A stretch of 64,000 nt of DNA, taken from the NCBI RefSeq assembly GCF_940670765.1, contig NZ_CALNVW010000020.1:372001-436000 (forward strand). The letters run 5' to 3'. The position numbers and the translations under genes are program-made. This document shows positions 16,154-33,007 of the stretch, piece after piece. This stretch comes from Streptomyces sp. A 4/2 (lineage in GTDB: Bacteria > Actinomycetota > Actinomycetes > Streptomycetales > Streptomycetaceae). Below the pieces are notes generated by a model. That model searched no databases, had not been told where the DNA came from, and was given only the letters and a program-made list of their open reading frames with translations. Position 1 is the first letter of the stretch; each line of letters starts with the position of its first letter.

Positions 16154-17494
16154 ATGAGTCACGAAGCGGAATCGCGTGCGGAATCCTTCGGGGGATCCGC
16201 CGCGAATCCGGAATCCCCACATGTACACGGAAAAGGCCCCGGTGCTCTCGCCCTCGTAGGCGGCAGTGTCATCGACGGCAGCGGCACGCAACCGATTCAC
16301 AGCGGCGTGGTCGTCATCGAGAACGGCCGCATCACGGCCGTCGGGCCGGCCTCTCAGGTACGCATCCCGGACGCGGCACTGGTCCTGCGGTGCGACGGGC
16401 AGACCGTCCTGCCGGGGATCATCGACTCGCACACACACATCGAGCAGGATCTCCCGGCCACCCTGGGCGCCTTCCTCAAGGACGGCGTGACGAGCCTGGG
16501 AAACACCGGCTGCGGACCGGACCTCGTTTCACAACTCCACACCGCTGGAGGGGACTTACATGCGGCCCGTGTCTTCGCGGCCGGGCCCGCGCTCACCGCA
16601 GCGGGCGGCTATCCGTCCATGCGCGGTGACGGTTCCGTCGCGCGCGCAGCCGACTCGGCCACGGAGGCCGAGGCCGCGGTCGACGAACTGGCCGCCCTCG
16701 GCGCCGATTTCATCAAACTGACCCAGGAGTCTTTCGACTTCAACTACCGCACCCCGGGCCGACTCCCCGTGCTCGGGCCAGGCCCGATCGCCGCGGTCGT
16801 CCGCCGCGCGGATACACACGGCTTGCTCGTCCGCTCCCATGTCCACCACGTCACGCAACTGGACATCGCGCTCGACGCGGGTGTCACCAGCGTCGAGCAC
16901 ATGCTCTTCCCCCTGCCGCCCGACATGGGCTACGTCGAACTGCACCGCGAGGGTGCCCTCAGCACGGATGCCCTCCCCGGGCTGCGCAGGCGGATCGCAC
17001 GCATGGTGGAGCAAGGCGTCTACCTGGTCCCCACTCTCGGCGGTGAACTCATCAACATCCGCCTGCATCTGCCGGACTTCCCCGCCGACGGCCTCCGGGC
17101 TGTCGAGGAACTGCTCGTCTCCGTCCTCGCCCTCTACGTCGAAGCGGGCGGCAAGGTCGCCCTGGGCAGCGACTGGGTCGGGCTGCCCGGTATTCCGGCG
17201 GGCATGCCGCGGCAGGAGATGGAGTACATGCTGGCCGCCGGTCTGACTCCGCTCCAGGTCATCGAGGCAAGCACCCGGCACGCCGCTACGCTGTGCGGTC
17301 AGGGCCAGACACTGGGCGTCCTGGCACCGGGGCGGCACGCCGACCTGACAGTCGTGGGCGGCGACCCCTTGCGTGACCCAGCCGCTCTGGACGACATCCG
17401 GGCCGTCGTCAAGGACGGACACCTCGCCGTACTCGCCGACAGCCAGAGCCCGCCGGCCCCGCACCGCCTCGCAGACACCGCCGACCCCCGATGA
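16154..17494 (+). CDS. Metal-dependent amidohydrolase
   Basis: The 446-residue protein is an amidohydrolase-superfamily TIM barrel of the imidazolonepropionase/Xaa-Pro dipeptidase type. Metal ligands can be read in order: HxH in DSHTHIE (near residue 90), a Lys in FIKLTQ (near 187), His in RSHVHHV (228), His in SVEHML (248) and Asp in LGSDWVG (339). It should hydrolyse an amide, lactam or ester. The start at 16154 is preferred over the ATG at 16127 because GGGAG lies seven bases before it. The stop overlaps the exporter start (ATGA), so the two are one operon, probably under the divergent MarR. Codon 135 (16556-16558) is TTA, the rare bldA-dependent codon. Confidence 0.85.
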   Translation: MSHEAESRAESFGGSAANPESPHVHGKGPGALALVGGSVIDGSGTQPIHSGVVVIENGRITAVGPASQVRIPDAALVLRCDGQTVLPGIIDSHTHIEQDLPATLGAFLKDGVTSLGNTGCGPDLVSQLHTAGGDLHAARVFAAGPALTAAGGYPSMRGDGSVARAADSATEAEAAVDELAALGADFIKLTQESFDFNYRTPGRLPVLGPGPIAAVVRRADTHGLLVRSHVHHVTQLDIALDAGVTSVEHMLFPLPPDMGYVELHREGALSTDALPGLRRRIARMVEQGVYLVPTLGGELINIRLHLPDFPADGLRAVEELLVSVLALYVEAGGKVALGSDWVGLPGIPAGMPRQEMEYMLAAGLTPLQVIEASTRHAATLCGQGQTLGVLAPGRHADLTVVGGDPLRDPAALDDIRAVVKDGHLAVLADSQSPPAPHRLADTADPR

Positions 17495-19011
17495 ACCGCG
17501 ACGCCCGCCCCGGGACCGAGGGCCCGCGGCCCGAGCCGTTCGGCACGGCTTCGCCGTGGAAGACACTGATCGCCGTGTCCGTGGGCTCCTTCATGACGAT
17601 CCTCGACGTCACGGTGGTCAATGTCGCCATCCACAGCATCCAGCAGGAGTTCGGAGCGTCCACCGCCGATGTGCAGTGGGTGGTCAGCGGTTACGCGCTC
17701 GCACTCGGCGTCGCCACCCCGTTGGCCGGGGCGCTCGGCGAACGACTGGGCACGAAGAAGGTCTATCTGATCTCCCTCGGCTGCTTCGCCGGAGCCTCCC
17801 TCCTGTGCGGTCTCGCGCCCTCCCTGCCGCTGCTCATCGTGGCGCGGGTCGTCCAGGGTCTCGCCGGGGGCTTCGCGCTGCCGCTGGGCTCGGCCAAGCT
17901 GTTCACCGCGTTTCCCGCGGCGAAGCGCGGCCTCGCGTTCGGTGTCTTCGGGATCGTCCTCGTCTTCGCCCCGACCGTCGGGCCACTGCTGGGCGGCGCC
18001 TTCGTGGACGCCGGGATGCTGCGCTGGATCTTCTTCATCAATGTGCCGATCGGCGCGCTCGGCGTACTCCTGGGGAGCCGCTTCCTCACCCCCGACGGGC
18101 CCCGGGCGGAATCCGCCCCCCGGATCCACCTGCCGAGCGTCGTCCTCGTCTGTGTGGGGTTCAGCGGGCTGCTGCTCGGCGCGACCCTGCTCGGCTCCCC
18201 GAGCGGCTCCCACAGCAGTTCGCGCGGCACCACACTGGCCGCGTTCGCCGTGGGCGCCCTGGCCCTGGTCGTGCTGGTACGCGTCCAGCTCCGCTCGGCC
18301 TCTCCCCTGCTCAACCTGCGGCTCTACCGCGTCCGTACCTACTGGATCGGCAGCGCCATCAACGCGCTCGGTCAAGTCCCCTTCTTCGGAACGCAGTTCC
18401 TGCTGCCGCTGTCCATGCAGGTGGTGCGCGGTGTCAGCGCACTGGATGCGGGGCTGGCCCTGCTGCCACTGGCGCTCTCCTCCGGTGCAGCCGGTGTCCT
18501 GGCGGGCCGGGTCAGGGACCGGTGGGGGCCGCGGCTCCCGCTCGCCGTGGGCTTTCTGCTGTTGGCCGCAGGCATCGCGATGCTGCGCGCACGCGCCGCG
18601 GATCCCGACCCGCGAGGCCTGGTGTGGCCCTTGCTGCTGGCGGGTGCAGGCGCGGGTGCGATCCCGCCGACGACACAGGTCACGGCTCTCAGCGACGTTC
18701 CCCGGGAGAGCGTCGGCAGTGGTACAGCACTGCTTCAGGCAACCCAGCGGGTCTGCCAGGCACTCGGCGTCGCGGCACTGGCCGCCATCGTCGCGCGAGG
18801 CGTCACCGCACCGGCGAACAGCCACGTCTTCATCGCACAGTACGCGGCAGGACTTTCGGCCGCCTACACGGTCGCCTTGTACGTGTCACTCGGCTGTGCC
18901 GTGCTCGCCACGCTCCTCCCCGGGTGGCCGATTCGCAGCACGGAAGCCATACCGGAGACAGGCCCCGGCACCGGAGCGGTGTCCGGGCAGAAGACGCCAC
19001 CGGATTCGTAG
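17491..19011 (+). CDS. DHA2-family MFS drug exporter (EmrB/QacA type)
   Basis: The 506-residue, roughly 14-segment protein has the family motifs 'MTILDVTVVNVAIHSIQQEF' in TM1, GERLGTKKVYLIS after TM2, RVVQGLAGGFALPLG and 'GPLLGGAFVDAGMLRWIFFI'. These proton-driven pumps export antibiotics and dyes. It is ATGA-coupled to the amidohydrolase and followed 121 bases later by the LAL activator, then the bisindole genes. In indolocarbazole clusters an MFS pump and a LAL regulator are usual members (RebT and RebR in rebeccamycin), so this may be the bisindole exporter. The MarR-amidohydrolase coupling could also mean an independent detoxification unit. Confidence 0.88.
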   Translation: MNRDARPGTEGPRPEPFGTASPWKTLIAVSVGSFMTILDVTVVNVAIHSIQQEFGASTADVQWVVSGYALALGVATPLAGALGERLGTKKVYLISLGCFAGASLLCGLAPSLPLLIVARVVQGLAGGFALPLGSAKLFTAFPAAKRGLAFGVFGIVLVFAPTVGPLLGGAFVDAGMLRWIFFINVPIGALGVLLGSRFLTPDGPRAESAPRIHLPSVVLVCVGFSGLLLGATLLGSPSGSHSSSRGTTLAAFAVGALALVVLVRVQLRSASPLLNLRLYRVRTYWIGSAINALGQVPFFGTQFLLPLSMQVVRGVSALDAGLALLPLALSSGAAGVLAGRVRDRWGPRLPLAVGFLLLAAGIAMLRARAADPDPRGLVWPLLLAGAGAGAIPPTTQVTALSDVPRESVGSGTALLQATQRVCQALGVAALAAIVARGVTAPANSHVFIAQYAAGLSAAYTVALYVSLGCAVLATLLPGWPIRSTEAIPETGPGTGAVSGQKTPPDS

Positions 19012-19132: not shown

Positions 19133-22111
19133 ATGGCAAAGGTGCCCGCACTCCACGACGGCGAGCGAACTTCGTCGGGTGGTGCCGAGGAACCGGTCGG
19201 CCGGTCCGGCGTGAGCGTACGGCCGCTGCGCGGACGCACGGAGCAGACCGAGCTGATCGGCCGCGCCTTCGAGCGGGCACAGAATTCACGGCGCTGCGTC
19301 CAGGGATGGATCAGCGGACCGGCCGGGATCGGGAAGTCCCGCTTGCTGGCCGAGGCCCGGAGGGCGGCGTCCGCGCGGGGCTTCACGGTCATCCACCTGG
19401 AGGGCGACGAGTTCTCCCCGGCCCTGCCGATGACATCGCTGTTCCATGCCCTGGCCCGGTCGCTGGACGCCGACCGTCGCCCGAGCCCGCGCCGGGGAGC
19501 TCGGGAAGTGCGGGACGAGCAGCGGGACGACCGGCATTTCCATGCGGCCTCGCTGTCACTTCTGGAAGCCCAGCTCAAGAAGGCCCCGCTGCTGCTCACC
19601 TGCGACGAGGGCCGGAGCCCCGTCCCACTGCTCGCTGCGACGCTGCACCCGCTGATGTCACGTCTGCGGAATTCCCCGGTGGTGTGGCTGACCGCCCGAC
19701 GCACCGTTCAGGAGGATGAACCGGCCCTTCCGGGTGGACCGGACGTCTGGCCGCAGAGCCCCACGGAGGCCCTGCGTCTGCCCCTCGGGCCGCTCTGCGA
19801 CTCGGCCGTTTCGCAGTTGTTCGCCGACTGCGCCGACGGGCGGCCCGACGCCGAACTGAGCACCCTGCTGGGTCTGGCCCAGGGCAATCCCCGGCTGCTC
19901 GTTGCCGTCATCGGACAACTCCTGGAACAGGGCGACGTCTGTGTGCAGGGAGGCACCGCCCGCCTGTCCGGCGCACCGGCCGGCACCGGGCCCCGGGCGG
20001 GCACCTCGGCCTCCGGGCGGGCACCTCGGTGGTTCAGCGCGTTGATGGAGGACCGGCTGGCGACGGTGTCACCGCAGGCACGACTGCTCATGGAGGTGGC
20101 AGCGGTACTGGGTCCGGCCTGTCTGCCCGAGGACATCGCGGAGATGCTCGGTGAACCGGTGGGCGCACTGGTCCCCCGGTTTCGCGAAGCGGTCGTCGCC
20201 GGGATGGTCAAGTGCGGCACCGAAACAGTCACCTTCCGCCATGAACTGATGCGACAGGTACTCATGGAAGACATGCCGGGTGTGGTCCGTGGAGCCCTGC
20301 ACCGGCAGGCCCTGGGCATCCTGCTCGCGCGCGGTCATTCCCCCACGTCGGTGGCCCCACATCTCATCCACGGGGCCCACCGCGGGGACCCGGCCATGGC
20401 CGGGCTGTTGCGCCAGGCAGCCGAGGAGTCGGTGACGAACGCCCCGCAGACCGCCGCGGACCTGGCGCTGCGCGGTCTCGAACTGGTGCGGCCGGTCGTC
20501 GACGCGGCACATGAACCGCTCACGGTGATCGCGGTGGAGGCATGCGTACGCTCCGGGACGCTCCCGACGGCCGTCACCCTGGCCCGGGACGCGCTCACCC
20601 GCCCGGCCGGTCCGGAGATCACCGCCCGGCTGCGCTACTGGCTGTCCACGGCACTGCTGCTCCTCGGCCGGACAACGGACTGCCTCGAAGTCGCCGGGGA
20701 GCTTCTCGCACAGCCCGGCGTACCGGCCCACCTGCGCCAGAAGGCCGTACTCAACCAGTTGTCGGCCTGGTCGGCCCACGACGGGCATCAGGTCGCGCGC
20801 CACGCCGAACAGGCGCTTGCCGCTGACGGTGGCCGTGGCGATGGCAGCGGTGACGGTGACGGTGATGGTGACGAAGGGCTGGACATCCAGGCAGGTGTCA
20901 CCACCGCACTCGCCGTACTGCGCTGGCGTGAGGGGAAGCTCAACGAAGCACTGGCCCTGTGCCAGGACGCCGTAGCACTCGCGGACCGGGGCTCGGCCTT
21001 CGAATGGCACACCCATCCCCGGCTGGTGTCCGCGATGATGCTCGCCCATACCGGCAGATTCAGCGAGGCGGAGGCCGCACTCGGAACAACCCCGGACCCG
21101 GTCGAGTTCGTCTCGGCCGACGTCCCCAGACTCGTACACGCGCGGCTCCGGCTCGCCGACGGCAGGCTGGACGAGGCGGAACGGGAGGCGACAGCGGGAC
21201 TCGCCGTTGCCGAGGAGTCCGGGGTCTGCGTGTTCATGCCGCTGGCCTGGCAGTTGCTGGCGACGGTGGCCTCGCACCGGGGCGAGCTGGCACGGGCCGG
21301 TGACTACGCTCGCCGCCTCAGGAAAGCGCTGCCGGACGACCGTGGGCAGGTGTGCGCGGCGGCCGGTGCCTGGATCGAGGCCCAGATCGCCCTGGCAAGC
21401 GGCAGTGAACCCGATCTCAAGAACGCTCTCGAAGAGCTGTGGTCGAACGAACCCGGTCGCGGCGCCCTGTTGATCGAGGAGCCCGGGTTCGCCCCGTGGC
21501 TGGTTCGTGTACTGCTGGCCACGCGGCACCCGAGCCAGGCGGCCGAGGTGTCCGCGGCGGCTGAGAGGCTGGCGCGTGCCAACCCCGGTATCACTGTGGT
21601 GTTCGCGGCAGCCGAGCACGCCCGGGGTCTGATCGAGGGGGATGCCGACGCGCTGGAGGAAGCCGTCGCAGGTCACCGTGATGCCTGGGCCCGCGCGTCA
21701 GCAGCCGAGGACCTGGGTGCGCTGTTGCTCGAAACGTCCCGGGCACGCGCCGTCCGGAGTCTGGAGAGCGCGCTCACGCTGTACGGGCAACTGGGCGCGG
21801 AAGGCGACACCGCCCGGGTCCGCCGCAGACTGCGGGCCGTGGGGATCCGCCGCCGGCACTGGTCCCATTCCCCTGAGCCGCAGACCGGCTTGCGGAGCCT
21901 GACCAGGACCGAACTCACCGTGGCCGAACACGTGGTGCAAGGATTGACGAATCGTCAGGTCGCTGACCGCATGTTCCTCTCACCTCATACGATCGCCTTC
22001 CACATGAGGCAGATCTTCCGCAAACTACAGGTCCATTCCCGTCTGGAACTCGCGCGCTGCATACAGGGCATCGGGCCCGAGGGAATGTCTCCACCGGGTA
22101 CGGGAGGGTGA
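19133..22111 (+). CDS. LAL-type LuxR transcriptional activator
   Basis: The 992-residue protein has a Walker A motif at about residues 62-69 (GPAGIGKS), a long helical TPR-like middle and a C-terminal LuxR helix-turn-helix at about 920-985 (LTRTELTVAEHVVQGLTNRQ, then SPHTIAFHMRQIFRKLQVHS). The Walker B region is weak (LLLTCDEG). LAL proteins are pathway activators of antibiotic clusters; StaR and RebR of indolocarbazole clusters belong here. It converges on the P450 of the bisindole operon and is the obvious regulator candidate. The linker has a Gly/Asp microsatellite (about 20825-20875) and a duplicated GGGCGGGCACCTCGG around 19995-20030, marks of slippage. The start at 19133 follows GAAAGG by about 14 bases and is moderately sure. 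Confidence 0.88.
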   Translation: MAKVPALHDGERTSSGGAEEPVGRSGVSVRPLRGRTEQTELIGRAFERAQNSRRCVQGWISGPAGIGKSRLLAEARRAASARGFTVIHLEGDEFSPALPMTSLFHALARSLDADRRPSPRRGAREVRDEQRDDRHFHAASLSLLEAQLKKAPLLLTCDEGRSPVPLLAATLHPLMSRLRNSPVVWLTARRTVQEDEPALPGGPDVWPQSPTEALRLPLGPLCDSAVSQLFADCADGRPDAELSTLLGLAQGNPRLLVAVIGQLLEQGDVCVQGGTARLSGAPAGTGPRAGTSASGRAPRWFSALMEDRLATVSPQARLLMEVAAVLGPACLPEDIAEMLGEPVGALVPRFREAVVAGMVKCGTETVTFRHELMRQVLMEDMPGVVRGALHRQALGILLARGHSPTSVAPHLIHGAHRGDPAMAGLLRQAAEESVTNAPQTAADLALRGLELVRPVVDAAHEPLTVIAVEACVRSGTLPTAVTLARDALTRPAGPEITARLRYWLSTALLLLGRTTDCLEVAGELLAQPGVPAHLRQKAVLNQLSAWSAHDGHQVARHAEQALAADGGRGDGSGDGDGDGDEGLDIQAGVTTALAVLRWREGKLNEALALCQDAVALADRGSAFEWHTHPRLVSAMMLAHTGRFSEAEAALGTTPDPVEFVSADVPRLVHARLRLADGRLDEAEREATAGLAVAEESGVCVFMPLAWQLLATVASHRGELARAGDYARRLRKALPDDRGQVCAAAGAWIEAQIALASGSEPDLKNALEELWSNEPGRGALLIEEPGFAPWLVRVLLATRHPSQAAEVSAAAERLARANPGITVVFAAAEHARGLIEGDADALEEAVAGHRDAWARASAAEDLGALLLETSRARAVRSLESALTLYGQLGAEGDTARVRRRLRAVGIRRRHWSHSPEPQTGLRSLTRTELTVAEHVVQGLTNRQVADRMFLSPHTIAFHMRQIFRKLQVHSRLELARCIQGIGPEGMSPPGTGG

Positions 22112-22163: not shown

Positions 22164-23519
22164 TCAGCCGCTCGGCCGCGCCCCTCCGGTAACGTCCGGC
22201 CGCACCGAGTTGCTCCGTACTCCGAGCGGTACACCGGCCCGGTTTCCGGGCCGTGCTCCGGTGTCCAGCCACAACTCCGCCGGTCCGTGAAAGACCAGAT
22301 CGTCCGTGTACCGGACTCCTGGGCCGGTCGGACTCGCCCCCGGCAGGAACTCCAGCAGCGCAGCGAGCCCGGTCTCGACTTCCGTCCGGGCCAGTGCCGC
22401 GCCCAGGCAGAAGTGGATTCCCAGGCCGAATCCGAGGTGTCGGTCAGGGGGCCGGTGCACGTCGAGCACATCGGGGTGGGGGAAATGGCAGGCATCCCGA
22501 TTGGCCGAGCCCAGCATGAGGACGATTTTCGCTCCCCGCCGGATCCGGTGTCCGCCGAGCGCTTCTTCCTGGTACGCCCATCGGCTCACGGCCTGGACCG
22601 GCGGGTCGAATCTGACGAGTTCCTGGACGGCCCCCGGCAGCAGCTGCTCCGCCGTGCACAGTTCCGCGAGGGTGTCGGGTCGGTCCAGCAGGGCCAGGGC
22701 CGACTTGGCCAGCGCATGGGTGGTGGTCTCGTGTCCGGCGGTGAGCAGGTGGACACAGGTCGCGGCGATCTCGTCGTCCGTCAGGGGCTCGCCCTGTTCG
22801 CCGGCTCTGACCAGCAGAGAGACCAGATCTTCCGCGTCCCCGCCGTGGCGGCGCCGGGCGTGGTCGCGGAAGAATTCGACGAGTTGCCGGGCCGCTGCGT
22901 CGGCGCGCACGAGCCCGTCCGTGCCGCTGCCCGCCCGCGACGTGCTCGCCTCCTGCAACTGGACGGAGAGTTCACGCAGCCAGTCGCAGTGCCGGCGCTC
23001 CACCCCGAGCAGTTCGCAGATCACCATGACGGGGAAAGGCGCGGTGAACTCCGCCACCAGGTCCACGACTTCCTTGCGCCGCATCTCCGCGAGCAGTTCG
23101 CGAGCGATCTCCTGCATGCGCTCGCGCAGACCGAGGACAATCCTCGGGGTGAACTCCTTACTGAGCAGCGCGCGCAGGGTGGTGTGCCGGGGCGGGTCGA
23201 GGAACACCAGCCAGTTCCGGAGCATGGTGCGCAGGGTTTCGTGGCGGTCCGCCGGCCGTGGCGCCGTGGGGCACGCGGAGCTCGCGACCGGGGGTTCGGT
23301 GTTCGCGGCGTCCGCGCTGCGTCCGAACCGTGGGCTGGTGAGCACCTGCACGACTTCGTCGTAACCGAAGACGTAGTAGGTGTCCGGCTCGCCCGGCAGG
23401 CCCGGCACATGGTGTACGGGGGACCTCGCCCGGTAGCGCAGGTAGACGGGGTAGGGATCGGCGATGGCCTCGGCCGGCCAGCCGCGCAGGTCGAAAGGTG
23501 GCAGTTCTTCGAACAGCAT
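22164..23519 (-). CDS. rebP: Cytochrome P450, RebP/StaP-like (bisindole oxidative coupling)
   Basis: The 451-residue P450 has the I-helix TAGHETTTH, the ExxR in VQELVRF and the heme loop FGLGIHFCLG near residue 370. It has a longer-than-usual tail of about 50 residues. The start at 23519 follows GGGAGAGG at good spacing. It is the last of four collinear genes whose products match the RebO-RebD-RebC-RebP order. In those pathways this P450 couples the indoles of chromopyrrolic acid to give the indolocarbazole core together with the flavoprotein. The assignment as RebP/StaP rests mainly on this context; as a P450 it is certain. Confidence 0.82.
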   Translation of the reverse strand: MLFEELPPFDLRGWPAEAIADPYPVYLRYRARSPVHHVPGLPGEPDTYYVFGYDEVVQVLTSPRFGRSADAANTEPPVASSACPTAPRPADRHETLRTMLRNWLVFLDPPRHTTLRALLSKEFTPRIVLGLRERMQEIARELLAEMRRKEVVDLVAEFTAPFPVMVICELLGVERRHCDWLRELSVQLQEASTSRAGSGTDGLVRADAAARQLVEFFRDHARRRHGGDAEDLVSLLVRAGEQGEPLTDDEIAATCVHLLTAGHETTTHALAKSALALLDRPDTLAELCTAEQLLPGAVQELVRFDPPVQAVSRWAYQEEALGGHRIRRGAKIVLMLGSANRDACHFPHPDVLDVHRPPDRHLGFGLGIHFCLGAALARTEVETGLAALLEFLPGASPTGPGVRYTDDLVFHGPAELWLDTGARPGNRAGVPLGVRSNSVRPDVTGGARPSG

Positions 23520-23568
23520 GGTGCCTCTCCCTGAGAGTAATGGCATCCGTCCGCGCACCGGGGGTGCG

Positions 23569-25191
23569 TCACCGGGCGCCGCGTACCGTGTCCGCGAGCG
23601 CGCCGGGGTCGGTGGGGAGCTCCGAGCCCCGCCAGGCCACGTGTCCGTCGGGCCGCACCAGGACGAACGGGCGCTGGTAGAGGGCGGCCACTTCGGAGTC
23701 GTGGCACACGGTGACGCCCAGCGGCATGTGCCGGTCGGCGAAGGCCCTTTCGAACCCTTCGTGCTGCGGGCACGGGTGGTACCGAGGAGGTTCCGCGAAG
23801 TTCAGCAGCCGGAAGCCGTCACCGAACAGGTCGAGTGTGGAGAGTCCCGGCTTCAGCCAGGCGTGCGGGGCACGTGATCCCGGCTTGCTGTTGGGACGCT
23901 GCTCGTTCTCGTCGGCCGGTGGCGTTCCGAGGTCGGGGACGATGACCGGGGACTCGTACCGGTATCCCATATGGATCATGGGGGCGTCGAACTCGCGGCG
24001 GATTCCGCTGCGTTCCAGTTGTTCGGCCATCGCGGCACGAGCCCGCTCGCCCGCGGGTGTGTCCTCGTGAAGGTCCTCGGACAGGGTGCGGCTCATCGTA
24101 CGGACGAGATTGCGGTTCGCCTCCTCCACCGCCTGCTCCGCGACGGGCTGCCGCTCGATTCGGTACGTGTCCAGGAGCGTGGGCCCCGACCAGCCCGCCA
24201 GTTCGGCTGCGAGTTTCCAGCCCAGGTCGGCCGCGCCCGCGATGCCGGTGTTCATACCGAACCCACCGGAGGGCGACAGGGTGTGTGCGGCGTCTCCGGC
24301 GAAGAAGACCCGGCCGCTGCGGAATTCCTCCGCCACCCGGTGTGTCAGATGCCATGCGTGGTCGGACAGCACCTCGACCGGCGTGTCGACGGCCAGCGCC
24401 TGCCGGATCAGCGCCAGGGCGGGCTGGGCTGCCTCGGGGCTGCCGTCGACGCGGACCGACAGCCGGAACAGCCCGCGGCCGTCCATCGCCCGCATGGGAA
24501 AGCGCAGCGACGTCGACAGCAGGAGGAAGTAGAAGAGCGCTTTGCGTGTTCCCAGCTGTTCACCGAGCTCAGGGGCGCGGAAGAGGATGTTGCGGAACGT
24601 CTGGGTGGGATGGCGGGCCGGGGCGGCGACGCCGCATGCCTTGCGGATCGGTGAGGAGGCACCGTCGCAGGCCACGAGGTACTGGGCATGGATGGTGCCG
24701 ACCGTCCCGTCCCTCTGGTCGGTGACGGTGGCGACGACCCCGTCGTCGCCCTGCTGGAAGGTGTCCATGCGGCAGTTCAGCCGCAGCGGTCCGTCCGGGT
24801 GTCTGCCCACCTCGTCGGCGAGCAGGGGCGCGAGCCAGTGCTGGGGGCAGATCTCGTCGGGCTCCGGGGTGTGCGCGAAGGGCCGCCGGGTCTCGCTGGT
24901 ACCGATGGGCAGCCGCAGTACCTCGTGTCCCCCGATCCGGGTGACCCAGACGCTGTCGAGTGTGTGGTCCCTCGGCCAGCCGGCGGCGCGGATCTTGTCC
25001 GCGACGCCCCACCGGCGGAAGAACTCCATGGACCTCGGGCCGATGTTGCTGACCTTGGGGTGGGAGACCGATCCGTCGCTCGCTTCGACGACGGTGTGGG
25101 CCACCCCTCGCGATCTGAGGTCCAGGGCCAGGGCCATGCCGACCGGGCCGCCGCCGACGACGAGGACGTCGGTGTCGTACGCAGGGGTCAT
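23569..25191 (-). CDS. rebC: FAD-dependent monooxygenase, RebC/StaC-like
   Basis: The 540-residue class A flavoprotein has the FAD dinucleotide fold GGGPVGMALALDLRSRG near residue 13, the middle DG segment and 'FFAGDAAHTLSPSGGFGMNT' near residue 290, plus a thioredoxin-like C-terminal part. The length fits RebC and StaC (about 530). The ATG at 25191 is chosen because it puts the dinucleotide fold at the N-terminus; AGGAAAGG precedes it. Together with the P450 it should set the oxidation state of the pyrrole ring of the indolocarbazole (arcyriaflavin-like or K252c-like). Sequence alone does not let me say which. Aromatic-polyketide hydroxylases share this fold, so context decides. Confidence 0.82.
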   Translation of the reverse strand: MTPAYDTDVLVVGGGPVGMALALDLRSRGVAHTVVEASDGSVSHPKVSNIGPRSMEFFRRWGVADKIRAAGWPRDHTLDSVWVTRIGGHEVLRLPIGTSETRRPFAHTPEPDEICPQHWLAPLLADEVGRHPDGPLRLNCRMDTFQQGDDGVVATVTDQRDGTVGTIHAQYLVACDGASSPIRKACGVAAPARHPTQTFRNILFRAPELGEQLGTRKALFYFLLLSTSLRFPMRAMDGRGLFRLSVRVDGSPEAAQPALALIRQALAVDTPVEVLSDHAWHLTHRVAEEFRSGRVFFAGDAAHTLSPSGGFGMNTGIAGAADLGWKLAAELAGWSGPTLLDTYRIERQPVAEQAVEEANRNLVRTMSRTLSEDLHEDTPAGERARAAMAEQLERSGIRREFDAPMIHMGYRYESPVIVPDLGTPPADENEQRPNSKPGSRAPHAWLKPGLSTLDLFGDGFRLLNFAEPPRYHPCPQHEGFERAFADRHMPLGVTVCHDSEVAALYQRPFVLVRPDGHVAWRGSELPTDPGALADTVRGAR

Positions 25192-25228
25192 ATCTTTCGC
25201 CTTTCCTGCTGTTGAGGAGCGGGGGGAG

Positions 25229-28200
25229 TCAGTACGCGCCGAAGCGGTCGGCCAGGAAGCTGAGCGTGTCCGCCACCCGGGCCGGGACGACCGGGTGTTC
25301 CCGGGCCGTCCGTGCGAGCTCCGTGCAGCGCCGTGCGAAGACGCGTCGTGCCACGTCCGGGCGGGTGAGGGGCTCCGGCGCCCTCTCCAGCGCGAACGGT
25401 GCTCCTGCCGTCCGGCCCGGTACACCCGACGGCAGGACTGCCAACAGTTCGGCCAGGGGTTGCAGCACACCGTTCATGAGGTCGATCGAGTAGTTCATGA
25501 GCTCCGATCGCCGCAGGCTCGCGTCGGGCTGTTCGCCGAAGTGCTGGACCATGAGCTGGGCCATCATGAAGTAGGAGCCGTTGCAGAGCCGGGCGACCTC
25601 ACGGGCCGTCGGTTCGACGATGACCTGCCGGATTCCGGTGCCTTCGGTCAGGGTCGGGTTACGCAGGACCGGATAGGCGAAGTCCGGGGCCGGGCGGTGA
25701 CCGGGCGGCCGGTTCAGCCGCAGGTTCATCAGGAGATCCGAGATCCGCAGGAAGGCGTCGAAGTGGCATTCCTCGCTCGGGGGGTCCGCCTCCTGAGAGA
25801 GGATCTGTCCTTCGCCCTGCTCGGTGATGAAGTCGACCGCGAACAGGGCGCTGGAGAGGTCGTCGACCTCCAGTTGGTAGTCCGGGTGCGCGGTGTTCAC
25901 CGACTTCCGCAGAAATACGTGGTGTTCGCCGCCGCCTCTTCCCCGGTCCACCATGAAGAGCCCGGGGATGCGCTGGAGCGCCTCTCGTACGGCGGCGTAG
26001 AGATCGCTCAACGAGGCGTAGCCGGGAGGCCCCGGCCGCGGGCCGTGGACAGGGCCGCCGAGGGCGCCGTACCGGACGTCGTGGCTGATGCGGTGGGGTG
26101 ACTCGATGGCGATGAACCGCTGGACACTGCCGATGTCGAGGCCTTCCAGCGAGAAGTCCAGCGGTACGAGCAGTTCGCCGTTGAGGGTGCCGAAGTCGAT
26201 GGCGGGAAAGTGGAAGGGTTCACCGAGCGCCATGACGATGTTGTTGACGACGAGGAAGTGGATCATTTCCTCGCGGGCCACGCGGAGCAGGGTGTTGCGG
26301 ATCCCGTCGTCGAGTGTCTTTCCGCCGTCGCCGCTGACGATCCTCAACTGCTCTTCTGTCCACTGCCCTTGCCGGACGTATTCCAGTCCGGCCCCGTGCA
26401 GTGGGAGGGAGTAGGCCGCGTAGAGGTACTGGAGGGTGACTGCCAGTTCGATCATCGCGGCGTGCCGCAGTGTCGACACCAGCTCCCGCCGAGTGGTGAT
26501 GCCGCCGCCCGTGCGCGTGGTGGCCGGGCTGGTGGTGAGGACCTGGTCCGGGGTGTTGCGCACGCGGAGGTAGGCCAGCAGCAGACGGGCCTTGGGTTCC
26601 GACAGGTCGCGGGTCGGTGGCATGTAGTACGTCTTCGGCTTGTTCTCCGGGTCGGACATCTGCCAGATCAGCCGGGCGTACGTGTCCACGCGGAACTGGT
26701 CCGCCAGGCTGAAGACCTTGTCCTTCATGAAGGCGAACATGTGCTCGTAGAAGGCGAAGACCTCCGCGTGGACCAGGTCGAAGGTCACCTGGTCCTGCGG
26801 TACGTCCGCCAGCCACCAGTCGTCGGGGAGAACCCGCACCGAGAGATGTCCGGCGCCGGCCCAGTAGCCGAGCCGATCGTCGTTGTCGTAGGCGACGGCG
26901 GCGGACCCGGGGAGCGAGGGATCGGCGGGAGGGTCCTCACCGGCCGCGGTCAGCAGAATTCTGGCGCAGCCTGGCCGCGCACCCCGCAGGACGAACGCCC
27001 CGCGCCCCCGGACGTCGGTACTGATCGTGCACTCGGCCGCCCAGTCGGTGCTCTTCACAGGGCTGTCGGGGAGGTCGGGGCGCAGCCGCACGATATCGAT
27101 GTCCGTGCAGCGTGCCCGGGGTGAGCGGGCCGCCTCGTCCCGGGGCAGGGCACGGGGGTTGGCGTACTGCCGGACATGGAGGACGTTCAGGGGGCCGGGC
27201 CTGCCCCGGATCAGGGAGAGGACGGATACACGGACGTCGTAGGTGTCGTCGTGTTCGCCGTCGGGGTGGTCGACGATGATGCACGCGTCGTCCGCCTGGA
27301 TGTTGACCTCACGCTCGCTCAGCAGCGGGGTCGTTGTGCCGTCGCTGTTCCGCCTCACCAGACACAGCGCTTCGTGTTCGGCGGCATCCGCCCGCGGTTG
27401 ACGAGGCACGGTCAGCACCCCGCTGGTCAGGTCCTCGGCGGCTGTCCGGGCACCCGTGGGAAGTTCGGCGACGAGATGGTCGCCGTGTGCCGTGCGCAGT
27501 TCCCAGGTCTCCCCCTCGCCGGCCCGGACGGCGAGTGTCCCCGGCGGTCCGGCGACCAGGTTGAAGGTGACATGTGCCGCTCCCACGTCGACGGTGACCT
27601 GGCGGGGTACCGGGGACGGGTGCGGGCGGGGCGGGTCCTGCGCGGTGAGCAGACGTCCTGCGGGGTACGAGCGGGGTTCGTCCGCTCGCCAGGGCGCGAC
27701 GGTGCCGCGGAGCTGCCAGGTGACGGGCTGCTCGGGAACGGCCGCTGCCGGAGTGCCGTGGAGTGCGAACTGCACGACGATCCCGTCGGCCCCTGCGGTC
27801 TCCACCGCGTCTCGCAGCCGGGTCACGACAGCTGAGCGGGACGGCTGCTCCAGCCAGTGCAGCGCGCCGTCACCGGTGACCACGAACTGGTGCACCGAAG
27901 AGGAGGGCAACCGGGACGCCGACGGCCGGACGTCGGCGTTGATGTGCGGGTCGAAGACCTGCCATCTGGGCGGCTGGAACCCTTCGACGTCGCCGGTGAA
28001 GAGGTATCCGACGTCGTGCGAACGGCCTTGGCGGCCGAAGCAGAACTGACCGACCATCAGCGTGGTGGTCCAGTGGGAGGACGGGTCGATGTCGAACACC
28101 CTGGCGCGGTTGGCCGTGGTGGCGAAGTACTCGTTGTAGTGGCCCCACATATCGACGTGGCCGCCGATCACGGGGTCGTCGGTGATCAGCGTTCCGGCGG

Positions 28201-28465
28201 AGAGTTCCGCGCCGACCATGCGTGCGTCCACGGCGAAGTGGCCGCTGCCACCGAAGTTCTGGCCCTTGGCCGGTCCGGGCCCCGGATCTGTCCTGTCCAG
28301 GATGTCGTGGTACTCACCGGCCGGGCGGTCCGCCGGGAACGGCCGGCCGTTGGGGGTGAGGGCGGTGTTCGTCGCGAGATCGACCAGTCCGCCGCGCGGT
28401 CCGGTGGGCAGTTGGGTCGTGGCGGTTCCGGCGAAGTGCAGCCGCGGGAGATCGAAGAGGCTCAT
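25229..28465 (-). CDS. rebD: Chromopyrrolic-acid-synthase family protein (RebD/StaD/VioB-like)
   Basis: The 1078-residue protein is the signature enzyme of bisindole pathways. The first 600 or so residues are the VioB-type beta-rich region starting SLFDLPRLHFAGTATTQLP. A ferritin-like domain follows with carboxylate/His ligands readable as Glu in MIELAVTLQYLYAAYS (about 672), ExxH in EEMIHF (about 730) and ExxH in EECHFDAF (about 898). These enzymes dimerise the imine of indole-3-pyruvate; RebD and StaD then yield chromopyrrolic acid. It overlaps the upstream oxidase gene by four bases. A violacein-type outcome would need VioE, which is not seen here. Confidence 0.92.
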   Translation of the reverse strand: MSLFDLPRLHFAGTATTQLPTGPRGGLVDLATNTALTPNGRPFPADRPAGEYHDILDRTDPGPGPAKGQNFGGSGHFAVDARMVGAELSAGTLITDDPVIGGHVDMWGHYNEYFATTANRARVFDIDPSSHWTTTLMVGQFCFGRQGRSHDVGYLFTGDVEGFQPPRWQVFDPHINADVRPSASRLPSSSVHQFVVTGDGALHWLEQPSRSAVVTRLRDAVETAGADGIVVQFALHGTPAAAVPEQPVTWQLRGTVAPWRADEPRSYPAGRLLTAQDPPRPHPSPVPRQVTVDVGAAHVTFNLVAGPPGTLAVRAGEGETWELRTAHGDHLVAELPTGARTAAEDLTSGVLTVPRQPRADAAEHEALCLVRRNSDGTTTPLLSEREVNIQADDACIIVDHPDGEHDDTYDVRVSVLSLIRGRPGPLNVLHVRQYANPRALPRDEAARSPRARCTDIDIVRLRPDLPDSPVKSTDWAAECTISTDVRGRGAFVLRGARPGCARILLTAAGEDPPADPSLPGSAAVAYDNDDRLGYWAGAGHLSVRVLPDDWWLADVPQDQVTFDLVHAEVFAFYEHMFAFMKDKVFSLADQFRVDTYARLIWQMSDPENKPKTYYMPPTRDLSEPKARLLLAYLRVRNTPDQVLTTSPATTRTGGGITTRRELVSTLRHAAMIELAVTLQYLYAAYSLPLHGAGLEYVRQGQWTEEQLRIVSGDGGKTLDDGIRNTLLRVAREEMIHFLVVNNIVMALGEPFHFPAIDFGTLNGELLVPLDFSLEGLDIGSVQRFIAIESPHRISHDVRYGALGGPVHGPRPGPPGYASLSDLYAAVREALQRIPGLFMVDRGRGGGEHHVFLRKSVNTAHPDYQLEVDDLSSALFAVDFITEQGEGQILSQEADPPSEECHFDAFLRISDLLMNLRLNRPPGHRPAPDFAYPVLRNPTLTEGTGIRQVIVEPTAREVARLCNGSYFMMAQLMVQHFGEQPDASLRRSELMNYSIDLMNGVLQPLAELLAVLPSGVPGRTAGAPFALERAPEPLTRPDVARRVFARRCTELARTAREHPVVPARVADTLSFLADRFGAY

Positions 28466-29979
28466 GCCTCCGCCCCCGACGCGCTGCGGCGGCCGGCGAC
28501 GGCTCTCTCGCTCGCGCCGGGCTGGTAGAGATCGATCTCCCGCACGACGTTGTCGGCCGACTCGATCGCGCCCTCGATCCAGGCGGGAAATGTGGAGCAG
28601 TGTTCACCGGCGAAGAACAGCCGTCCTTGCCGGCGAGCCGCAGAGGCCCGTTCCGCCTCACACGTGGCGATGTCCTTCCCCCAGCGGACGGCAGCCGCCC
28701 CCATGCTCGACGGAGCACTGCCCCACACCTGATCCACTACGCCGAGGATCATGCCGTCCTGCCGCAACTGCGGGTGTACTGCGGCCAGTTCGTCCAGCAC
28801 GGTGGCGAGGCGGGCGCGGCGCCCGAGAGCACCGAGCACGTCGGCGTCGTCACCGATGGTGTAACTGGCCAGCAGGGCCGCGCCGAGCGCGGGGTCGCTC
28901 TCGGTCGGAGGGTAGTAGGTCTGGCGGATCAGGCCCCCGGTGAAGGATCCACCGCCGGTGATGCCGTCCGCCTCCCAGAACGGCTCCCTGCAGTGGAAGG
29001 CGACTTTGGTGGCGGACCAGTAGCTCATGTCGTGGACGATCGCCCGTTTGTCGTCGTCGAATCCGACCAGGTCCATGGTCCGCAGTACGGAGAAGGGAAT
29101 GGTGCACAGCACGTAGTCGCACGTCTTGGTGACCGTGCCGAATCCACGCCGCATCCGGAGGACGACGTCGTCGTCCCGTAGTTCGATCCCCACCACTTCC
29201 TGGCCGCAGCCGATCGGCCCTTGGATCCGGTCACGGAGCTCGTGAACCATCTGGTCCATTCCGCCCTGCAGCCGCACGAGGCTGGAACTGGTCTCGTTGA
29301 CGATGTCCTCGACGAAGCGGTACAGCCTGCCCGTGCACCCCGCCTGGATCTGCGGGTGGTCCGCGAACAGGGAATGCAGGTCGATCCGGTCCTTGCCCGG
29401 TCCGTACACATAGGGCGCGAGGTCGATTCCTTCGACCAGTCCGAGGACTTCGCGGTCCAGTCCGTTCTGGATACTGTCCCGGAAGCTCTTGGGTGCGATG
29501 GCGTTCACCCGTACGGACAGCCAAGCGGCGAAGAGCACCGTCGCATCGCTGTACTCGCGCTCCGGCAGGCGCAGTCTCAGCTCCTGTACGAGAGCCGGTG
29601 AGGCGTCATGTATCCGCTGGTGCCCCGAGTGTGTCTCCAGGTACCCGGTGTCGTCCTGGAACAGCGTCTTGAACTCCCTTACCCGGTCGGCCAGTCCGAG
29701 TTCGCGCACATAATGCATGGTGCGGTGGTGGGTGGCCGGCACCCGCATGGCGCCGAGTTCCACCGAGGGCCCCGGGCGGTCGGGCAGGAATCGGTGAGTG
29801 CGTACCCTGCCGCCGAGTTGCAGTCTCCCCTCCAGCATTTCGACGGTGTGGCCACGCCGTTCGAGTTCGTACGCCGCCACCAAGCCGGATATGCCGGCAC
29901 CGATGATGGTGATCCGTTTCTTCGTCCCGGCCCGTGAGGAGCGGGACTGCCCAGAGCTCTGTGACGGCATGCTAAGCAT
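28462..29979 (-). CDS. rebO: FAD L-tryptophan oxidase, RebO/StaO/VioA-like
   Basis: The 505-residue flavin amine oxidase has the FAD motif IIGAGISGLVAAYELERRG near residue 25, an RVRTHRF turn, the middle segment SYWSATKVAFHCREPFW and the C-terminal FAD loop LFFAGEHCSTFPAWIEGAIE. As first gene of the operon before the RebD homologue it should oxidise L-tryptophan to the imine of indole-3-pyruvate. The ATG at 29979 follows GAGGAAG by nine bases; TTG and GTG codons just upstream are possible but badly spaced. No halogenase is present, so unchlorinated tryptophan is the likely substrate. Confidence 0.88.
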   Translation of the reverse strand: MLSMPSQSSGQSRSSRAGTKKRITIIGAGISGLVAAYELERRGHTVEMLEGRLQLGGRVRTHRFLPDRPGPSVELGAMRVPATHHRTMHYVRELGLADRVREFKTLFQDDTGYLETHSGHQRIHDASPALVQELRLRLPEREYSDATVLFAAWLSVRVNAIAPKSFRDSIQNGLDREVLGLVEGIDLAPYVYGPGKDRIDLHSLFADHPQIQAGCTGRLYRFVEDIVNETSSSLVRLQGGMDQMVHELRDRIQGPIGCGQEVVGIELRDDDVVLRMRRGFGTVTKTCDYVLCTIPFSVLRTMDLVGFDDDKRAIVHDMSYWSATKVAFHCREPFWEADGITGGGSFTGGLIRQTYYPPTESDPALGAALLASYTIGDDADVLGALGRRARLATVLDELAAVHPQLRQDGMILGVVDQVWGSAPSSMGAAAVRWGKDIATCEAERASAARRQGRLFFAGEHCSTFPAWIEGAIESADNVVREIDLYQPGASERAVAGRRSASGAEA

Positions 29980-30343
29980 TCGCACCAACTTCCTCGATCA
30001 CGTTCGCCGCCCATTGTTGAGGCCGGTCAGTCTCTGCCACATCCCCAGTTCGGGTGGGGACACGGGTAGTTGATGCATGGTCCGTCGCGGCCGATCCTCC
30101 AACAGCACGGGCGGCACCCCGCACGACCGGACGGTTTATCGGTCGCCGCCCCGGAAGGACTCCGGATTCGGGCCATGCTGAGGCCCACACGCTCGTGGTG
30201 GATTCCGATGGCCTGGCGAAAGCCGGCGAGAGGGGGCAGCAGTGGGGCACGCTGCACAAGACGGCCTCGGCAACCTGGACTCATGTCGCACCGCACCACA
30301 ATTCCCGGTGGGCGGCGCACTGCCGGAGCGGACCGAAAGCGGG
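29980..30343. promoter_or_regulatory. Divergent promoter region of the bisindole cluster
   Basis: 364 bases separate the oxidase and methyltransferase starts and must carry both promoters. At 30042-30060 there is TCCCCA, seven bases, TGGGGA, a perfect 6-bp inverted repeat that could bind the LAL activator. I see no gene here. Confidence 0.4.
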
Positions 30344-31354
30344 ATGCCCGAGACGCTGGAACGGGCGGTATTCGGCATGCACGCCACCCATGCCGTTCAC
30401 TTGGCCGACCGGCATGGCGTATTCGCGTTTCTGATCGAGCACGGAGCGAGCAGTACCGAGAAGGTCGCCGCCGGCACCGGGGCCGCCGAGGAGACTCTCG
30501 GCCGGCTACTCATCGCGCTCCGTGCGTTCGGGGTCCTGGACGAGGACAGCCACCGCCGGTACCTGGTGCCCACGGAATCCGCTCCGTATCTGGACCCGGC
30601 CCATTCCCGCTATGCCGGCGCGTTCGTCGGGCATCTCGTCACCAGCACCGCCGGTCGGATGCCGCAACTGGACGCCTATCTGTCACAAGGCAAGGCGTCG
30701 GTGGACGCAGCGCTCCCCGCCCCCTTCGAGGCGATGTACGCGGACGCCGGGTCGGTGGCCGACTTTCTCCGTGCCATGTGGCAGTTGAGCTTCGACGTCT
30801 CGGGTGAACTGGTGGAGCTCGCCGGGCTGCGTGGGGTCCGCCGGCTGGTGGATGTCGGCGGGGCGAACGGTCCGTTCTCGGTCTCCGCGCTGCTCCGTAC
30901 GCCGGCGCTCCACGCCACCGTCTTCGACCTGCCGCATGTGGCACCTCACCTCGCGCGGACCCGGGAGGACTACGGCCTCGGCGACCGGCTCTCCTTCGCA
31001 CCCGGGGACTTCTTCCGCGACCAGCTGCCCGGGGGTGACTGCCTCGCCTTCGGTTACATCCTCTCCGACTGGGACGACGCCACCTGTCTGGAGCTGCTGC
31101 GCAAGGCGCATCGGGCCTGCGAACCCGGCGGTCGGGTGCTGGTGATGGATCGGCTCTTCGACGACGACGGTCACCGACCGCTGGCCACGGCGGTGATGAA
31201 CCTCTCCATGCACGTCGAAACCCGGGGCCGGCACCGAACCGCTGGTGAATTCCTGGATCTGCTGCACGCATCGGGCTTCGTCGACTGCGAGGTGCGCCGC
31301 TCCAGCCGCGAGAAGCACCTTGTCGTCGGCCGTTCAGCAGAGGACGGGGGCTGA
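30344..31354 (+). CDS. SAM-dependent O-methyltransferase (plant-type dimerisation domain)
   Basis: The 336-residue protein has an N-terminal winged-helix dimerisation domain (HAVHLADRHGVFAFLIEHG) and a C-terminal Rossmann domain: SAM motif LVDVGGANGPFS near residue 168, FDLPHV, the LSFAPGDFF loop and YILSDWDD carrying the region of the catalytic His-Asp. In place of the usual HxWxD the sequence is SDWDD, so the catalytic base may differ. It probably methylates an oxygen or nitrogen of the bisindole. It starts the divergent set and is followed three bases later by the TDO-like gene. The start at 30344 has a weak ribosome site; a GTG at 30308 is possible. Confidence 0.82.
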   Translation: MPETLERAVFGMHATHAVHLADRHGVFAFLIEHGASSTEKVAAGTGAAEETLGRLLIALRAFGVLDEDSHRRYLVPTESAPYLDPAHSRYAGAFVGHLVTSTAGRMPQLDAYLSQGKASVDAALPAPFEAMYADAGSVADFLRAMWQLSFDVSGELVELAGLRGVRRLVDVGGANGPFSVSALLRTPALHATVFDLPHVAPHLARTREDYGLGDRLSFAPGDFFRDQLPGGDCLAFGYILSDWDDATCLELLRKAHRACEPGGRVLVMDRLFDDDGHRPLATAVMNLSMHVETRGRHRTAGEFLDLLHASGFVDCEVRRSSREKHLVVGRSAEDGG

Positions 31355-31357
31355 CCC

Positions 31358-32533
31358 ATGCACGGCACGCCGACCGAGCCGACCGGACCGAGCCTGCCCG
31401 GCGACGCCGAGAACATAGCCAGACTCCAGAGCACCCGCGGCCGGGCCGCGCTGACCGAATCCGAGCGCGATCGACTGGCGGGATCGTACGAGGCCGTGGC
31501 GGTGGACGGCCACGCAACGGAAGCGGAAACGATCCGGTTGCTGACCCGGCCGTTCAGCCGGAGTGAGCGGATTCCCGAGTACTACCGCTACACCAGTCTC
31601 CATGTCTACGACTGGTTCCTCGCACCGTACGGGGAGGATCCGGTCGCGGCCGTGACGCTTGCCATGCGCGCGACCCTCGCCGATCTGGCCGCCTGGGAAC
31701 AGGCGCGGGAAGATGTCCGGCCCGGCGCTCTTCCCTACCTGCCGGAGCGACTTGCCCGGCTGCACGCGGTGATCGGGCAGGTGGACGACGTGGTCATCAA
31801 CCCGGTGGGGCCGGTGCACGGGGCCGATGTCGCCCACGGTGCCGGGACCGACGCGGCTTTGCGGTGGCGGCTGTACGTACTCACCCGGTGCACGGCGTTC
31901 ACGCAATCCGATGACGACAACGAGCACATCTTTCTGCGCTCCGTTCATGCGTGCGAACTCGCTTTCTATCTTTCCCGGTGGACCGCCTGTCGGGCGATCG
32001 TCGCCATGAACTCCGGCGACCGGGAGGAAGCCCAGTTCCGTATCGGTCAGGTGGCTGCGTGCTCCGAGCTGATCAAGGGGATTTTCCATGCCCTCAGGAC
32101 GCTCTCGCCCGAGCAGTTCATGAACTTCCGAGAGGCCACCGGGGCTGCCAGCGCGGTGCAGTCATTGAATTTTCACCTGATGGAGTTGGCGCTGTTCGGA
32201 TACGACCCCCGGAAATCCGAGGTGTTCGAACGAATCGATCATCTGCGCATGTTGAACGATCCACCCTATCGGGCCCATTGGTCACTCCGGGGAGCTGTTC
32301 TGGCCTCTGATTCCCCGGAGTTGAGCGCCGCATTCGCTACGGTGGAGCGTTCACTGATGACCTGGCGGGGACGGCACTACGGCTTCGGCCGACTGTATCT
32401 TCCCCGTCAACTCAAGGGATCCGGTGGGACCGAAGGAGCGGGGTACCTGAAAAGGTTCGTGGACAAAGACAGTTGCCTCCCCGGAACGCCGGGACCGCTC
32501 AATGAGGCCATGTTCCGCTTCGCCCTCCGGTAA
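31358..32533 (+). CDS. Tryptophan 2,3-dioxygenase-superfamily protein, atypical
   Basis: The C-terminal two thirds of this 391-residue protein align by eye with tryptophan 2,3-dioxygenase. 'FMNFREATGAASAVQSLNFH' matches the TDO stretch holding the substrate-carboxylate Arg (here Arg258), and WRGRHYGFGRL supplies the proximal heme ligand (His340). GSGGTEGAGYL matches the TDO GTGGSSG loop, with Ser355 for Thr. Phe192 matches the active-site Phe. At the distal His position I read Val196 with His197 next to it, and Phe254 replaces the Tyr. So it is probably a heme enzyme acting on an indole with altered chemistry, as for the TDO homologue MarE. The N-terminal 170 residues are extra. It is tightly coupled to the methyltransferase. 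It could cleave or oxygenate tryptophan or the bisindole. Confidence 0.7.
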   Translation: MHGTPTEPTGPSLPGDAENIARLQSTRGRAALTESERDRLAGSYEAVAVDGHATEAETIRLLTRPFSRSERIPEYYRYTSLHVYDWFLAPYGEDPVAAVTLAMRATLADLAAWEQAREDVRPGALPYLPERLARLHAVIGQVDDVVINPVGPVHGADVAHGAGTDAALRWRLYVLTRCTAFTQSDDDNEHIFLRSVHACELAFYLSRWTACRAIVAMNSGDREEAQFRIGQVAACSELIKGIFHALRTLSPEQFMNFREATGAASAVQSLNFHLMELALFGYDPRKSEVFERIDHLRMLNDPPYRAHWSLRGAVLASDSPELSAAFATVERSLMTWRGRHYGFGRLYLPRQLKGSGGTEGAGYLKRFVDKDSCLPGTPGPLNEAMFRFALR

Positions 32534-32593: not shown

Positions 32594-33007
32594 GTGACCA
32601 CTTCTCCGGTACTGTCCGCCGAGGTCGCCCGTCGAGTCCTGGACGCCGCACTGGCACAGGCAGCGAACCTGAAGGTCGCCGTCACCGTCGCTGTCGTGGA
32701 CAGCGGCGGCAATCTCCAGACTCTCGCCCGTATGGACACCGCCACGTTCTGGTCCACGAACGTCGCCACCCACAAGGCGATCACGGCAGCCGGGCTCGGC
32801 TTGCCCACGGTGGCCTTCGCCAAGTTCGCCGCGCAGGACCCCATCCTGCTCGCCACCATGGCCACACAGCCGGGTTCCGCGCTGCTCCCCGGCGGCATCC
32901 CGATCTTCGTCGACGGAGCGATCGCGGGAGCCATCGGTGTGGCCGGCGGGACCAAGGGCGAGGACGAGCCCATCGCTGAGGCGGGTGCGGCTGCCGCGGC
33001 GGGCTGA
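32594..33007 (+). CDS. HbpS/GlcG-family heme-binding-like protein
   Basis: The 137-residue protein is a single GlcG/HbpS domain: LDAALAQAANLKVAVTVAVVDSGGNLQTLARMDTA-type start, then 'THKAITAAGLGLPTVAFAKF' and a C-terminal GGIPIFVDGAIAGAIGVAGG. Family members bind heme or cobalamin; HbpS of Streptomyces reticuli is a secreted heme sensor. No signal peptide is seen here, so it is likely cytoplasmic. The GTG start has AGGAG eight bases upstream. It follows the TDO-like gene by 60 bases and is closed by a strong terminator, so it belongs to that operon. A role in heme supply or protection for the neighbouring heme enzymes is inference. Confidence 0.8.
   Translation: MTTSPVLSAEVARRVLDAALAQAANLKVAVTVAVVDSGGNLQTLARMDTATFWSTNVATHKAITAAGLGLPTVAFAKFAAQDPILLATMATQPGSALLPGGIPIFVDGAIAGAIGVAGGTKGEDEPIAEAGAAAAAG

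Follow-up and report, generated by a model that had tools for sequence, protein, structure and literature searches.

A predicted tryptophan-methoxylating gene pair, with one member of the tryptophan dioxygenase superfamily, adjoining an indolocarbazole-type core in Streptomyces sp. A 4/2

The window, that is, the whole stretch of 64,000 nucleotides that was analysed, carries at positions 31358-32533 of the forward strand an ATG-started open reading frame of 391 amino acids, and these coordinates proved exact. The encoded protein, termed TDO-like below for its homology to tryptophan dioxygenase (TDO), stands in the following neighbourhood:

17491-19011, + strand: MFS transporter (PF07690, 177.6 bits), cluster membership uncertain
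19133-22111, + strand: LuxR-family large ATP-binding regulator, probable cluster regulator (PF00196 and PF13191)
22164-23558 (likely start 23519), - strand: StaP/RebP-type cytochrome P450 (463.8 bits to 2z3t; next match 222.3)
23569-25470 (likely start 25191, 540 aa), - strand: RebC-type FAD enzyme (730.1 bits to RebC 2r0c)
25229-28465, - strand: RebD/VioB-type chromopyrrolic acid synthase (TIGR04492 VioB, 645.7 bits; PF12902, 112 bits)
28462-29988 (likely start 29880), - strand: RebO/StaO-type L-tryptophan oxidase (PF01593, 171.4 bits; adjoins RebD)
30308-31354 (longest open reading frame from 30242), + strand: O-methyltransferase (OMT) of the BifF/OhmJ kind, predicted to cap hydroxytryptophan (PF00891, 134.7 bits)
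31358-32533, + strand: member of the TDO superfamily, putative heme-dependent hydroxylase of tryptophan, BifE/OhmK kind (PF03301, hhalign, invariant residues, OMT linkage)
32594-33007, + strand: HbpS/GlcG-like small protein, downstream of the TDO-like gene (PF03928, 102.2 bits)

The placement of the gene inside a bisindole cluster, as stated in the initial annotation, was borne out by the matches of its divergent neighbours. The RebC-type enzyme scored almost as highly against 4eip (722.9 bits, named as a putative FAD-monooxygenase) as against RebC itself, with the next match at 211 bits, and the best match of the P450, 2z3t, is titled only Cytochrome P450 and is taken by us to be StaP. The RebD/VioB-type synthase stayed under the 1250-bit cut-off of the VioB model and gave no match at E 1 in a PDB search. 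The RebO-type oxidase matched L-amino acid oxidases in the PDB, no RebO structure among them, and is assigned tentatively by family and position. Homologues of RebO, RebD, StaP/RebP and RebC/StaC, the combination by which an indolocarbazole cluster is recognised, thus occur together in the window, and make up the complete core known for products of the arcyriaflavin/K252c type. Beyond the P450 lie the LuxR-type regulator, of which a related (cut) gene occupies the same place in S. celluloflavus (locus L001), the MFS transporter and an amidohydrolase; on the right side of the window, genes for ClpP, a mycothiol-S-transferase-like protein and a GH114 protein look unrelated to the cluster.

The TDO-like protein scored 45.5 bits (E 8.6e-12) with the Trp_dioxygenase family of Pfam (PF03301), for which the cut-off is 34.9, and its profile aligned to Streptomycetaceae TDO-type proteins with hhalign probabilities of 98.7% (local) and 99.2% (global), so that the TDO-family membership first proposed from the letters stands. 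Likewise, a PDB search with a profile of nine relatives returned TDO structures, plus one designed porphyrin-binding protein at E 0.51. An AlphaFold model, computed from a three-sequence alignment (window, L001 and L002, the latter from Streptomyces sp. SID3343), had a mean pLDDT of 44.6 and was unusable. His340, Arg258, Phe192, Val196, Phe254 and the loop Gly354-Ser355-Gly356-Gly357 were all found at the positions that the initial annotation gave. In the alignment, Phe192, Val196, Phe254, Arg258, Ser265, His340, Ser355 and Gly356 were the same in every one of the 22 distinct TDO-like family rows (Gly357 in 21 of them), and Phe192, Arg258, Ser265 and His340 were common to all 44 aligned rows, 22 of the family and 22 TDO-type; the residues for heme and for the amino-acid part of tryptophan are kept as in TDOs.

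The comparison set consisted of the 30 best-scoring TDO-type loci in the bacterial family (L003, L075-L103; full or partial matches), classed by sequence alone; 22 rows were aligned, with L094-L096 and L099-L103 left out, and the distal site was checked in all 30. Against this set the TDO-like family is set apart by its pairing with an OMT, by a constant spacing of 81 residues between Arg258 and His340 (22 of 22 rows, versus 118-136 in the 22 TDO-type rows) and by a long N-terminal part, with 165-214 residues before Phe192 versus 40-109, a rough comparison given that some rows may include spurious N-terminal residues. An ordinary TDO, recruited into the cluster to make N-formylkynurenine, is highly improbable, even though TDO homology, a TDO-like GSGG loop and, as in local TDO-type proteins, the presence of Phe at 254 and the lack of His at 196 would agree with it: the TIGR03036 TDO equivalog model gave 56.7 bits against a cut-off of 390.7, the spacing differs, the genome holds a separate full-length TDO-type gene elsewhere (246.9 bits), and no kynurenine-using gene was recognised among the cluster genes scanned.

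The distal pocket had been offered as a clue to function. Val196 and Phe254 are indeed present where His and Tyr would be expected, and the counterpart of Val196 in Xanthomonas TDO chains is residue 55, which is Ala or Ser in those chains, presumably mutants of His55. As unusual departures, conversely, these residues did not hold up. The site of Val196 was Thr in 18, Ser in 3 and Gly in 1 of the 22 aligned Streptomycetaceae TDO-type proteins, never His, and that of Phe254 was Phe in all 22; the 8 further TDO-type loci outside the alignment had Thr or Ser and Phe at the two sites. By alignment, then, Val196 and Phe254 are departures from the TDO of Xanthomonas or of humans rather than from local TDOs; particular to the family is the nonpolar side chain at 196 alone, with Val in all 22 rows. 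MarE, which had been named as an example of an altered pocket, is reported to retain His55 and Arg118 (PMC11904535), and in the text available an active-site loop is named as a key determinant of its reaction outcome (PMC12312684). The pocket argument is weak because the local TDO-type proteins also do without His and Tyr and because MarE keeps the distal His, and a function deduced from the pocket is not supported. The absence of a distal His says little in Streptomyces, whose TDO-type proteins miss it too, which corrects a tempting inference. A MarE-type mono-oxygenase that forms a 2-oxindole would fit a gap of about 40 residues by which the window protein, like MarE, seems to lack the alpha-F/alpha-G region of TDOs; such an enzyme is extremely improbable here, with a distal His and an SLGGR loop in MarE against Val196 and GSGGT in the window protein, and with no gene for beta-methyltryptophan turning up in the scan of the cluster genes. 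Other Streptomyces genomes hold a further TDO-like family, 447 amino acids in length, that has Ile in place of the distal His and an extended N-terminal part (L042:8941-10284, L043:9417-10760).

The stop codon of the OMT gene lies 3 bases from the ATG of the TDO-like gene. An OMT gene was found directly upstream and on the same strand in 21 of the 22 distinct family loci (all but L037; gaps between -4 and 69 bases), and the proposed coupling to a methyltransferase is supported. The OMT of the window was 79% identical to that of L001, 76% to that of L002 and 57-63% to the OMTs of the 18 remaining pair loci. Its closest solved structures include RedM (115.5 bits, the best PDB match) and the hydroxyindole O-methyltransferase 4a6d (106.9 bits). 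N-methylation of the RedM type was considered and set aside; O-methylation is preferred because of the distribution of the pair, and the hydroxyindole O-methyltransferase scores nearly as high. A Ser occupies the fourth position of the motif Y[IV]LS[DG]W in this OMT and its relatives (22 of 22 rows, L035 included), where plant-type O-methyltransferases have their catalytic His.

Close relatives of the TDO-like protein were rare: at E 1e-30 they occurred in 17 of 394 genomes of the bacterial family and in 1 of 396 of the phylum, the latter being the window's own genome. In the sample of the genus, some match at E 1e-3 was found in 105 of 392 genomes, with values below E 1e-80 in only 8. The producers of argyrin and zelkovamycin are reported to fall outside the bacterial family (PMC6920865, PMC8631618), so further members exist that these genome samples missed. 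In one genome (G832) the TDO-like gene was present twice, at C1:4611017 and C1:4876558, and both copies scored the same. Gene content was compared by clustering across 23 family loci of about 10-20 kb each, with Pfam searches on selected loci only (L036, L039, L040, L041 and L064 among those that are not bisindole clusters; the others were named by clustering). L035, from the window's species and 99% identical, was dropped from the trees and from the counts of 22, and L061 (genome G811), the reverse complement of L002, was counted once.

Bisindole clusters made up 9 of the 23 loci (window, L035, L001, L002, L069, L071, L072, L073, L074). All nine had the same order, OMT, TDO-like and HbpS-like genes divergent from RebO and RebD, and RebC followed RebD in 8, wherever the locus extends that far (L002 ends inside RebD). 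A StaP-like P450 then followed in 5; none clustered beside RebC in L071, L073 and L074 within the stretch read. Near the bisindole genes of these same three loci, a gene of the UDP-glucose dehydrogenase family and an epimerase gene were seen; L071 and L073 also have a gene for a DegT aminotransferase (assigned by Pfam in L071 and by clustering in the others). All 9 bisindole pair loci, and none of the 14 others, have the HbpS-like protein (PF03928), at the clustering threshold used and in the stretches read. With the VioB model, a RebD/VioB-like gene was found in 14 of 200 genomes of the bacterial family, 6 of which (G000, G811, G900, G908, G932, G949) have the pair and 8 of which gave no match to the TDO-like family profile at E 1e-10; under half of the sampled bisindole-type genomes thus carry the pair.

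The 14 remaining loci, 13 of them with the OMT directly upstream, are of another kind. A non-ribosomal peptide synthetase (NRPS) gene (cluster c3) and an ABC-permease gene (c5) were common to 10 of them by clustering; the rest include L041 with ketosynthase genes plus a P450, L040 with a P450 plus transporters, and L070 with an NRPS-like gene. Biffamycin-like and related NRPS clusters with the pair were seen in further Streptomycetaceae (L036, L038-L039, L062-L068). In the bif-like locus L066, the gene models break the halogenase, regulators and synthetase (clusters c12, c11, c17, c3) into two or three pieces, perhaps through assembly frameshifts or decay of the cluster. By Pfam, L064 encodes MbtH, a tryptophan halogenase, a flavin reductase, a TauD-type oxygenase and an A-PCP-C-A-PCP synthetase, which matches much of the gene content reported for the bif cluster (GenBank PV425438) in the accessible text (PMC13285481); no glycosylation genes were seen in the stretch of L064 that was read.

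For such pairs, published function is available. BifE is reported to hydroxylate free tryptophan, not 5-chlorotryptophan, at C4 in vitro, BifF then methylating; together they give 4-methoxytryptophan, and bifEF suffice for this in S. coelicolor M1152 (PMC13285481). Deletion of ohmK or ohmJ led to demethoxy-ohmyungsamycin, OhmK and OhmJ being needed for 4-methoxytryptophan (PMC6920865), and like pairs of a TDO homologue and an OMT have been proposed for argyrin (Arg5/Arg4), ecumicin and zelkovamycin (ZelE/ZelD) (PMC6920865, PMC8631618). One source keeps heme tryptophan hydroxylases apart from the TDO/IDO superfamily (PMC12921851), and another calls BifE a TDO sub-family member (PMC13285481). 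At 48-51% for the TDO-like protein and 58-61% for the OMT, the identities of the window pair to the bif-like loci L036 and L064-L067 resemble the values given for BifEF versus OhmKJ, 49% and 60% (PMC13285481); the link to BifE, OhmK and Arg5 is one of gene content and of identity level to bif-like loci, not of direct alignment. An SfmD-type tyrosine route (methylation, then hydroxylation) was dropped, the published OMT-paired relatives acting on tryptophan.

In the tree of the TDO-like proteins, the 8 distinct bisindole rows fell on one side of a branch against the 14 others with a support of 99/99, and in the OMT tree against 13 others with 94/90. With a distant outgroup the split in the former was weaker, the non-bisindole rows grouping with 66/99 and the bisindole rows arising at two changes. 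A single transfer of the pair into RebO/D/C bisindole clusters is, from these trees, likely but not proven. At residue 197, L040 shares the His of the 8 bisindole rows, and the remaining 13 rows have Gln; this residue is a candidate site for a change of specificity, and the position of attack may differ. A family of heme tryptophan hydroxylases was reportedly defined by Shi et al. in 2023, and enzymes that hydroxylate the indole elsewhere are said to exist. It is unlikely, if worth bearing in mind, that a tryptophan hydroxylase of the same kind acts here at C5, C6 or C7, attack at C7 for example leading to a 1,11-dimethoxy rather than a 4,8-type indolocarbazole. The separate bisindole clade with its different residue 197 would suit such a change, as would BE-13793C, a 1,11-dihydroxy arcyriaflavin for which 7-hydroxytryptophan has been postulated, no gene being put forward in the text available (PMC7024260). 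On the other hand, the OMT-paired relatives (those of biffamycin and ohmyungsamycin, and by proposal those of argyrin, ecumicin and zelkovamycin) are tied to 4-methoxytryptophan.

The same clade and the HbpS-like gene, missing from the other stretches read, could also speak for a late tailoring role, in which the enzyme would oxygenate chromopyrrolic acid or arcyriaflavin once the bisindole is assembled and would open or rearrange an indole, as the initial annotation had imagined. Such a role is very improbable: NRPS clusters use the same pair, the residues that bind the amino-acid part are kept, and BifE is reported to act on free tryptophan (PMC13285481). That the bisindole clade, with His197 and its HbpS-like partner, has given up free tryptophan and would turn the assembled bisindole (chromopyrrolic acid or the indolocarbazole) into ring-opened or rearranged, O-methylated indole products is, likewise, quite improbable. 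Mono-oxygenation rather than cleavage, also suggested in the initial annotation, is supported as probable, and opening or rearrangement of an indole ring is less likely than benzene-side hydroxylation of free tryptophan, given the same pair in NRPS clusters and the 4-methoxytryptophan that BifEF make and for which OhmKJ are needed.

In the preferred reading, which we consider likely, the TDO-like enzyme hydroxylates tryptophan, with C4 as the likeliest position, and feeds the OMT and the bisindole core. That heme is bound, which substrate is used, that C4 is attacked, how the steps follow one another and what product results are all inferred. The protein would belong with BifE and OhmK to the bacterial subfamily of tryptophan hydroxylases, as a heme mono-oxygenase with a histidine ligand; it would hydroxylate the benzene side of free L-tryptophan, most likely at C4, and the adjacent OMT would cap the hydroxyl to give methoxytryptophan. 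RebO and RebD would then oxidise and couple two methoxytryptophan units to a methoxylated chromopyrrolic acid, from which the StaP- and RebC-type enzymes may form a methoxylated indolocarbazole of the arcyriaflavin/K252c type. Dimethoxy-arcyriaflavin A has the same formula as chromopyrrolic acid that carries no modification (C22H15N3O4, m/z 386.1135). That methoxytryptophan is made ahead of RebO is the simplest reading because the same pair stands in NRPS clusters, because of the published function of BifEF and OhmKJ, and because the identities are similar.

No published bisindole cluster with an OMT and TDO-like pair was found in the literature on tryptophan dioxygenase or hydroxylase with chromopyrrolic acid, indolocarbazole or bisindole, or on methoxylated or hydroxylated arcyriaflavins, as far as the accessible texts go, though Shi et al. 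2023 may mention some. The enzyme is probably a new member of a recently recognised family, and what is new would be the tryptophan-methoxylating module ahead of an indolocarbazole core. If so, indolocarbazoles would be built from methoxylated tryptophan through the addition, to the rebeccamycin/staurosporine core, of a portable pair of genes that elsewhere belongs to peptide clusters; undescribed methoxy-indolocarbazoles would be predicted in at least 9 genomes; a route would be provided to hydroxylated and methoxylated analogues of the indolocarbazole kinase-inhibitor scaffold; and the kind of gene to seek would be indicated for hydroxylated indolocarbazoles such as BE-13793C, whose hydroxylase went unfound.

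Among known systems, the core of rebeccamycin and staurosporine biosynthesis (RebO, RebD, RebC, StaP) has homologues of all four enzymes in the window, and a TDO-like/OMT pair is not known from those clusters. The BE-13793C cluster bec of Streptomyces sp. MA37 shares the core genes (becO-D-C-P) and, by prediction for the window, the oxygenated indoles; in contrast, its product bears hydroxyls, not methoxyls, and no tryptophan hydroxylase gene is recognised in bec in the text available (PMC7024260). MarE of maremycin biosynthesis belongs to the same superfamily, mono-oxygenates a tryptophan derivative and is without the alpha-F/alpha-G region, as the window protein seems to be; it differs in its length of 284 amino acids, its pyrrole-side attack to the 2-oxindole, and in having His55 and the SLGGR loop (PMC11904535). 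OhmK/OhmJ, Arg5/Arg4, ZelE/ZelD and the ecumicin pair combine, like the window, a TDO homologue with an OMT, but belong to NRPS pathways (PMC6920865, PMC8631618). BifE/BifF of biffamycin A from Streptomyces albidoflavus S4 are likewise a TDO-subfamily heme protein and an O-methyltransferase that work together; there, the 4-methoxytryptophan is reported to be chlorinated and used by an NRPS (PMC13285481), whereas the window pair adjoins homologues of RebO, RebD, RebC and StaP.
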